A stretch of 64,000 nucleotides of DNA from contig CATOSM010000001.1 in the NCBI GenBank assembly GCA_951812645.1, positions 413,560-477,559 on the forward strand. The letters are read 5' to 3'. This document shows, piece after piece, positions 40,687 through 61,759 of this stretch. Position 1 is the first letter of the stretch. Every line of letters begins with the position of its first letter. The stretch is from an uncultured Candidatus Nitrosopumilus sp. Lineage in GTDB: Archaea; Thermoproteota; Nitrososphaeria; Nitrososphaerales; Nitrosopumilaceae. The translations under genes were made by a program, and so were the position numbers. A model generated the notes under the pieces. That model ran no database searches and was not told where the DNA came from. It saw nothing but the letters and a program-made list of their open reading frames with translations.

Positions 40687-40693
40687 GGGTAAG

Positions 40694-40775
40694 CGCCGAG
40701 AGAGGGATTCGAACCCCCGCACGCTTGCGCGTAGCCGTTTTCGAGACGGCCGCCGTACTACTTGGCTATCTCGGC
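40694..40775 (-). tRNA. tRNA-Ser (anticodon CGA)
   Basis: Acceptor arms GCCGAGA and TCTCGGC pair perfectly. D arm GCCAAGTAGTACGGC, anticodon arm GCCGTCTCGAAAACGGC with loop CTCGAAA and anticodon CGA, a long variable arm TACGCGCAAGCGTGC typical of class II tRNAs, and T arm GGGGGTTCGAATCCCTC. Discriminator G, as for serine. CCA is not encoded. No intron. Confidence 0.95.
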
Positions 40776-56638: not shown

Positions 56639-56789
56639 GGATATTCAGCTGTTGTTCTTTAAATTGGAATAGAGGACTTGAGCATATTGCTTAATATCAA
56701 AATAGATCGGTTGGTGATAGTTTACAACTTAATTTGACCCACAAGTAATCATTTTTGATTCTGGTTTTTTAACAAAAAGATCACCATAA
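56639..56789. other. Gene-free AT-rich leader before RNA candidate
   Basis: About 150 bases with no ORF. A TATA-like CCATAAAAG at 56784-56792 could start transcription of the GC-rich segment after it. Confidence 0.35.
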
Positions 56790-56920
56790 AAGAGACATTG
56801 AGTCAGAGACATCTCGCGGTGTTAGCTGGAAGAGCTCAATGCTCACATAAACTGGTTAATGCGTTACAGTCCCCATAGCAAAGGAGACGGGAAGAGGCAG
56901 TCACTAAGGTTGTACATACA
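56790..56920 (+). ncRNA. Candidate structured non-coding RNA
   Basis: About 130 bases with distinctly higher GC than the AT-rich flanks, no open frame of note, and consistent nested or serial pairings: CATTGAG (56796-56802) with CTCAATG (56835-56841); a hairpin ACTG-gt-TAA, loop TGCG, TTACAGT (56851-56870); TCCC (56870-56873) with GGGA (56889-56892). I find no tRNA, 5S, SRP or RNase P consensus. Strand is chosen from the TATA-like sequence; the reverse is possible. Confidence 0.4.
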
Positions 56921-56953
56921 GTATTTTAATGCCCAATCAGAGACAATATCAAA

Positions 56954-57274
56954 TTGACAGAAATTAAGCTGGAAGGTTCAGGCGGATGGATTAATGCAGA
57001 TCTTACAGATGAACAAGTGACCAAATCAAAACTTGTTCCAAATATAGACAAGCATTTTTTGGCATCACTTGAAAAACTAGATACTGCAAAAATGTCAAAG
57101 CATTTTTGTAAACAATGCAATTCAGAATTTGACGGTCCCGCTCAAATACAAATCGAAGAGAAGCCAAATGAGGCAGTTGCAGACGGATTAACCCTGATAG
57201 AAAGAGGCCAATACACATGTCACAAATGTAGCACGATCATTGGCGAATACAGGGTATTTGCAAAAAAAGAGTAA
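56954..57274 (+). CDS. Zinc-ribbon protein, 106 residues
   Basis: TTG start, TEIKLEGSGGWINADLTDEQVTKSK..., then KHFCKQCNSEFDGP and GQYTCHKCSTIIGEYRVF: two CxxC pairs about 40 residues apart. No membrane segment. Probably cytoplasmic; role unknown. It follows the RNA candidate by 34 bases. Confidence 0.68.
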   Translation: MTEIKLEGSGGWINADLTDEQVTKSKLVPNIDKHFLASLEKLDTAKMSKHFCKQCNSEFDGPAQIQIEEKPNEAVADGLTLIERGQYTCHKCSTIIGEYRVFAKKE

Positions 57275-60885: not shown

Positions 60886-61759
60886 CAACTTATCCTAAAA
60901 CCCTCCAATGCATCATGACGCATGCCAGATACACAAACCCGAGACAGTCATCACAGTTCCTTTCGTATCTGACTGCCGTCCTGTGAAGCCCGCACTTGAG
61001 CCAGGCAAGGAACCTCTCCACTGCAAACCTTGTCTTGCCATAATGTCTTTGATTCCTGTTCTGTGCAACGTTCCTTGAGTTCCTTTTGTATGGAATGCAG
61101 CAGTCAATCCCACGGGATCTCAGATATTCTCTGATGTATGCCGCATCGTATCCCCTGTCGGCATACGCTGAGACGATCTGCCGTATCAAACCATCACCTG
61201 CAGGTTCTGAGATGTCTTCTGACACATCGATGAATTTCGTACCGTCATGAATGTTTGCAGGGCTGGCCCTGATTGAGATTGGCAGTCCTGTCCCGTCTAC
61301 TGCAACGTGAATCTTTGTGCCCAGGATCCTCTTGAACCCGTCATATCCTGTTTTGTCCCCCTTTTTGGCGGCAACTGACGATGAATCAATCGATATTTTT
61401 TGCAGGCTGATTTTTCCCTGTCTGTGCGGATTTGATCAGTCCTGACAGAATCCTTTTCCATATTCCCTTTTGCTGCAGTTCTAAGAATCTCAGATGCGCA
61501 GTGGATTTTGAACCGTATCTGTCCGGCATGTCTGCCCACCTGCATCCGGTTGTTAGGACAAACAAAATTCCGTTGATTGTGTTTCTGTCATTGCATTATG
61601 GCCTTCCGGTTTTTGCAGGCTTTGGCAGATGTGATGCAACCGTGTTCCGTTGAACGTCTGACATCTCTTTGTGAATCATGAAGGATGTATCAGCAGGGTC
61701 ATTCTTGGATCCCGATTGTCATGAATTGTTTACAAAATGATCGGTTTTAGGATGAGTTG
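60886..61759 (-). mobile_element. IS5-family insertion sequence, copy B (874 bp)
   Basis: Same element as copy A, reverse orientation, nearly identical. Inverted repeats CAACTTATCCTAAAACC (60886-60902) and the reverse complement of CAACTCATCCTAAAACC (61743-61759). Flanking triplets are AAC and TTC, so there is no target duplication. Both neighbouring genes are truncated at its ends, suggesting that the insertion was followed by a deletion or that two copies recombined. Confidence 0.88.
60890..61679 (-). pseudogene. Transposase of IS copy B, inactivated
   Basis: Start MIHKEMSD at 61679. Three lesions against copy A: a TAA in place of the AGA codon in GRPRCN (plus-strand ATTATGGCC near 61600); a 2-base deletion of AC in the region of KSAHRQGK (near 61430); but here the A5G5 run keeps the frame that copy A loses. 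The catalytic D (YADRGYDA) and E (FAVERFLAW) are intact in the last part, 61225-60890, which remains an open frame of 111 codons. Confidence 0.82.

Follow-up and report, generated by a model that had tools for sequence, protein, structure and literature searches.

The question raised by this locus was whether a short GC-rich segment in gene-free, AT-rich archaeal DNA encodes an RNA and, if so, of which kind. The segment lies in a window of 64,000 nucleotides from an uncultured Candidatus Nitrosopumilus sp., i.e., the whole stretch of DNA that was analyzed, and the sequence-only reading of this window had proposed a possible new archaeal ncRNA at positions 56784-56925 from its GC excess, the lack of an ORF, and a series of drawn stems. 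The GC rise was confirmed, with a fraction of 0.50 at 56800-56899 compared to approximately 0.24-0.38 in the upstream flank and 0.31-0.43 downstream, as was the gene-free character of the segment, that held no listed ORF of at least 40 aa. In contrast, the fold failed as evidence, since its minimum energy of -33.9 kcal/mol (z -1.24) was equalled by 22 of 200 shuffles, such that energy and GC content alone would not support an RNA; the opposite strand folded worse than its own shuffles. The argument from a GC island plus a fold was consequently lost, and it is conservation, not fold, that makes the RNA element real as judged from its homologues. By this measure the segment is a previously uncatalogued small-RNA gene of ammonia-oxidizing archaea with a predicted transcript, and the proposal of a new ncRNA was supported by a conserved single-copy locus, promoter elements at fixed spacing, a terminator-like hairpin, and the lack of an Rfam match.

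The claim that the segment matches no known RNA consensus was upheld by Rfam 15, which identified no family within the window segment at the gathering score and none at the RNA even with E-values up to 10, where just two weak matches were found, both upstream of the RNA. No Rfam family was identified at the RNA in eight homologous loci. The archaeal RNase P (RF00373) and SRP (RF01857) RNAs are likewise intergenic and occur once per genome, but both lie elsewhere in this genome (C1:522701-522979 and C1:1133369-1133680, respectively) and the segment matched neither model. The sole tRNA of the window is a tRNA-Ser (CGA) at 40693-40775 on the minus strand. No description of such a Nitrosopumilus ncRNA was found in the open-access literature; an earlier unnamed sighting elsewhere is possible.

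Alignment of the homologous loci revealed a common layout comprising an upstream element, 9 nt, the TATA-like box TTTTTTAA, a fixed 24 nt, and an RNA of approximately 100 nt. All features are on the plus strand of the window, with the upstream element at 56741-56757 (family consensus AAAAGTRATTNTTTTTG from the alignment of upstream regions) and the box at 56765-56772, confirming the TATA-like element that had been noted upstream and that is present in nearly all homologues. The interval first proposed contains the RNA, but the conserved unit extends from approximately 56796 to 56890 and the promoter (56741-56772) lies upstream of the interval. The spacing between upstream element and box was 9 nt in 59 of 76 copies (7 nt in the window copy) and in 65 of 92 the distance from the end of the box to the conserved RNA core was 24 nt (23 nt in the window copy). 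The two elements and the 24-nt spacing were kept with a variable spacer sequence, and element and box accompanied the RNA through at least 12 gene neighbourhoods. In the six of nine genomes that matched exactly, the combination of element and TATA box occurred once per genome and only at the RNA; other promoter-element matches that were inspected were at chance level, most of them in coding sequence. The upstream element is palindromic in many copies (CAAAAAG-TRAT-TCTTTTTG in relatives), and the palindrome-like sequence at 56741-56757, which is found at this promoter only, is a possible binding site for a transcription factor. The spacing of box and RNA is the geometry of an archaeal TATA box and start site, which places the expected start of the transcript at CATTGAG (56796) or immediately before it.

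The RNA body at 56796-56890 was matched by the covariance model with 88.2 bits (E 5e-19) and by a second model with 92.3 bits. Its parts are, in order, the near-invariant 5' motif AGAGACAUCUYRCGG, a hairpin of 11 bp termed P2, and a further hairpin, P4, which a U-run usually follows. The 5' motif is the most conserved part outside the hairpins and reads AGAGACATCTCGCGG at 56805-56819 in the window (family AGAGACATCTYRCGG). P2 is formed by the 5' arm GTGTTAGCTGG at 56819-56829 and the 3' arm CTGGTTAATGC at 56852-56862 (family CTAGTTAAYRC), preceded by the nearly invariant apical-loop segment GCTCACATAAA at 56841-56851. P4 pairs AGTCCCC at 56868-56874 (family AGTCTCC or TGCCTCC) with GGAGACG at 56883-56889 (family GGAGACT or GGRGGCA).

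Covariation in the homologues, which had been named as a check of the RNA, gave a divided result in that compensatory changes were present in P4 but no column pair was significant in an all-pairs phylogeny-aware (R-scape-like) scan, a test without power as most positions are too conserved to vary. Among 69 distinct sequences, 98.1% of the pairs were standard and both-sided changes occurred in P2 and P4. Anchored by sequence motifs and not by pairing, P4 took the forms AGUCUCC/GGAGACU, UGCCUCC/GGRGGCA, and UACCUCC/GGAGGUA, including changes from A-U to U-A, U-A to C-G, and AGU/ACU to UAC/GUA. P4 was paired in 99.1% of cells compared to the 72.9% expected, a level matched in none of 2000 simulations with substitutions placed at random on the tree. 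P2 exchanged U-A, U-G, and C-G pairs and its pairing was matched in 73 of the 2000 simulations, a weaker test. A long-range P1 stem (GAGUC/GACUU) suggested by RNAalifold was dropped because its 3' side is absent in many copies, and a UGAG/CUCA pseudoknot was set aside as its letters hardly vary and their co-change says little. The stems originally drawn do appear in the minimum-energy fold, but that fold is not unusual and the 7-bp CATTGAG/CTCAATG stem is not conserved, with pairing in no more than 65% of cells when 93 distinct homologues were compared. The lowest-energy fold of the window copy favors this stem over P2, CAATG/CATTG pairing occurs in a few Nitrosopumilus copies, and a stem of this type may form in part of the RNA family. 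The TCGC/TGCG-loop hairpin competes with the conserved P2 and beat the tree null weakly (249 of 2000), and the TCCC/GGGA stem exists only because the window copy has an altered 3' end.

A T-run of at least five residues followed P4 in 82 of 96 representatives. U-tracts mark archaeal terminators and are also read by the thaumarchaeal termination factor tested in Methanococcus (PMC8716108). Of the 14 representatives lacking the run, 13 belong to the Nitrosarchaeum and sister-genus type and the remaining one is the window copy. At 56890-56925 the window copy is without the CTGACTTTTTTT run of its relatives, carrying GGGAAGAGGCAGTCACT in its place, and it has two mismatches in P4 and an A-to-G change within the otherwise invariant CTAGTTAA. 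These changes could mean that the gene is decaying in the window's own genome and has lost its normal 3' end, a reading that does not conflict with the favored explanation of the family. It is possible rather than probable, since the promoter and 5' motif are undamaged, as are the pairing and loop of P2, and no other copy is present in the genome. The altered end may reflect decay, the use of a different 3' end, or an assembly error.

The distribution of the RNA is restricted to part of one family. In a DNA search of 60 related genomes, most members of the genus to which the window belongs carried the element, compared to none from the sampled other families of the order. The covariance model placed it in six genera (Nitrosopumilus and five sister genera of the Nitrosopumilaceae) with one copy per genome in 51 of 151 Nitrosopumilaceae genomes; a seventh genus from the BLAST family search was attributable to chance matches inside a coding sequence. 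A second, broader covariance model identified it, again as a single copy, in 84 of 300 genomes of the class and five of the 69 genera sampled, and the positive genomes included nearly all well-assembled Nitrosopumilus. This model gave nothing credible in 35 genomes picked for lacking a match, nearly all at least 90% complete, which comprised other genera and families and one complete Nitrosopumilus-type genome (G199). When 84,980 GTDB genomes were scanned with a pattern, 72 matches were obtained, all 72 with Thaumarchaeota or plain archaeal titles (Nitrosopumilus, Nitrosarchaeum, Nitrosomarinus, Nitrosomaritimum, unnamed Thaumarchaeota, Nitrosopumilaceae, and a few generic archaeon entries), one of them a metagenome bin with the label Nitrososphaeraceae. 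The viral contigs scanned contained no match to the RNA. Several genomes of the window's genus, including G199 (complete, 1.9 Mb), yielded no copy, in contrast to nearly all of their relatives, and the RNA is thus not essential to the whole genus.

Weak matches outside the family (L134 and L135, with a per-genome E of approximately 0.05) and one from another genus (L223, E 0.32) were taken as chance matches to terminator-like sequence. Short matches to the spacer and 5' region in other genomes fell within an apparent glutamine-amidotransferase coding sequence, and one 28-base match to this region in G150 was taken as chance. Beside the normal copy in genome G111, a weak second match of 31.8 bits on contig C32 (L281, 1524-1626, minus strand) retains AUAUCUC, a P2-like stem, P4, and the T-run and is a possible diverged paralogue of the RNA. 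Two strongly diverged, GC-rich copies (L279 at 1662-1753 in G336 and L280 at 1716-1801 in G340) retain the 5' motif, GTAAACTAG, P4, and the T-run but have lost the conserved letters before the motif, and much of their P2 sequence is also changed. In both, the motif AGAGACATC itself stands 24 nt from the box, by which it would lie at the very 5' end of the transcript. A deeper covariation test would profit most from these two copies.

For the function of this RNA, the favored explanation, held at about even confidence from comparative sequence evidence, is a trans-acting base-pairing small RNA of the Nitrosopumilaceae that uses its 5' motif. The dedicated promoter of upstream element, TATA-like box, and fixed 24-nt spacing would start a transcript of approximately 100 nt that carries the near-invariant motif in its first 15-25 nt, followed by the 11-bp P2 with its invariant loop and by P4 plus the U-run as the end. 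The RNA would then act in trans by pairing through the motif, with P2 as a stabilizing or protein-binding module. It resembles the trans-acting small RNAs of bacteria and archaea in being intergenic and in having a promoter of its own, as predicted from sequence, a conserved 5' segment, and, in most copies, a 3' hairpin plus U-run. It differs from them in that the 5' motif and loop are far more conserved than is typical, and in that it is limited to some Nitrosopumilaceae genera and known from sequence alone.

The best single candidate partner of the 5' motif is the 16S rRNA, a tentative lead that is clearly more likely to be wrong than right. Twelve contiguous letters of the motif (56808-56819 in the window) are complementary to CCGUGAGAUGUC in the 16S rRNA of the same genome, the variable positions Y and R face G and U of the 16S, and every common variant pairs. 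Motifs shuffled by column reached 12 in two of 1500 trials against 16S plus 23S, the rRNA being one of several partners considered post hoc. The energy of the motif/rRNA duplex was unexceptional (-26.3, where shuffled queries averaged -23.5 with an sd of 2.4), and the complementarity is broken in a small number of sequences such as L188 and L203. The 16S site is universally conserved and offers no variation against which co-change of the motif could be followed. In 13 genomes, no extended or near-perfect antisense complement of the 5' region was recurrent besides the 16S lead, including those of mRNA type. A 16S partner would suggest a role in 30S maturation or ribosome regulation. In its specific form, a lineage-specific RNA outside the C/D and H/ACA guides that pairs by a 12-nt 5' element with this 16S site and assists or controls small-subunit maturation, the proposal is similarly doubtful.

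The main rival to base pairing in trans is protein binding, with the motif and P2 loop recognized by a protein and the RNA serving as a decoy or as the scaffold of a ribonucleoprotein. Both the motif and the P2 loop GCUCACAUAAAC show much stronger conservation than pairing with one short target would require, no other near-complement of the 5' region recurred in the 13 genomes, and the rRNA duplex energy is that of an ordinary sequence, all consistent with a protein partner. However, the only common variation of the motif core is at Y and R, exactly where wobble pairing with 16S is allowed, and the protein-binding explanation is considered a real possibility that probably does not apply.

A non-canonical C/D- or H/ACA-like guide for rRNA modification, targeting 16S near the complementary site, is improbable. 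Archaeal guide sRNAs are also small RNAs with an rRNA-complementary stretch (PMC3608112) and the 12-nt 16S complementarity would suit such a role; in 32 of 95 copies there is also an ACA at a distance of 3 nt from the end of P2. The guide signatures are nevertheless missing, in that box C is at chance level and neither CUGA nor ACA is conserved. Compared to the box C consensus RUGAUGA, 90 of 95 copies had at least two mismatches, no better than random 130-mers, and the box D sequence CUGA was absent in 40 of 95. An H/ACA RNA was sought as ACA or ANANNA directly after the hairpin and a bipartite pocket with two guides of 4-8 nt. The position of the ACA is otherwise occupied by UCA (25 of the 95 copies), UAC (15), and also UUA, P2 has no usable bipartite pocket as its internal loop has only 0-3 nt on the 5' side, and the upper stem P3 is lost in the Nitrosarchaeum-type part of the family.

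It is very improbable that the RNA is a cis-acting leader or riboswitch for the gene that follows it. Many Nitrosopumilus genomes do have a same-strand gene start approximately 50-130 nt downstream, and in the window a gene for a 106-aa cysteine-rich protein with no Pfam match follows at 56954-57274 (plus strand) as a neighbour outside the RNA. This next gene has its own TATA-like sequence, however, and the RNA usually ends in a terminator-like hairpin with a U-run. Clustering of the genes neighbouring 96 representative loci placed the RNA in at least 12 different neighbourhoods, among them the window type with a tRNA-methyltransferase-like gene and the short cysteine-rich gene, the SCM1-type context, and one with an RtcB-like and an adenylosuccinate-lyase-like gene. 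Other neighbours included a TFB-like gene, VWA-domain genes, a Hef-like helicase, and an acetyl-CoA-synthetase-like gene; apart from those of the window type, these gene names are readings of the sequences. ORFs resembling pieces of an insertion-sequence transposase, as read from their translations, occur at 60890-61565 of the window. Different clades have different downstream genes, which can lie on either strand and in Nitrosarchaeum-type genomes lie opposite to the RNA. Given this variety and the number of neighbourhoods, the RNA does not serve one particular gene as its leader. A small protein gene can be dismissed, as a short open frame is readable in some copies but no frame is open in most of 95 copies and the spacings of the invariant anchors are spread over all three phases (43/36/16 and 49/42/4).

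The nearest precedent for the RNA is Tan1, an abundant 229-nt ncRNA of marine group II Euryarchaeota that was observed as a transcript and is likewise a lineage-specific structured ncRNA of marine archaea with no known function (PMC5069720). The RNA described here differs from Tan1 in its length of approximately 100 nt, in its phylum, and in being a predicted transcript.

Much of the oxidation of ammonia in the ocean is due to archaea of the Nitrosopumilus type, for which the literature searches found no described regulatory or structural small RNA beyond the universal ones. The single-copy RNA family described here apparently has a member in a cultured model genome (G106, C1:189827-189932, minus strand), and its natural loss in G199 and other genomes could reveal what the RNA is needed for. 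If the pairing with 16S is true, the family would represent an rRNA-directed RNA that belongs to neither of the two guide classes known so far.
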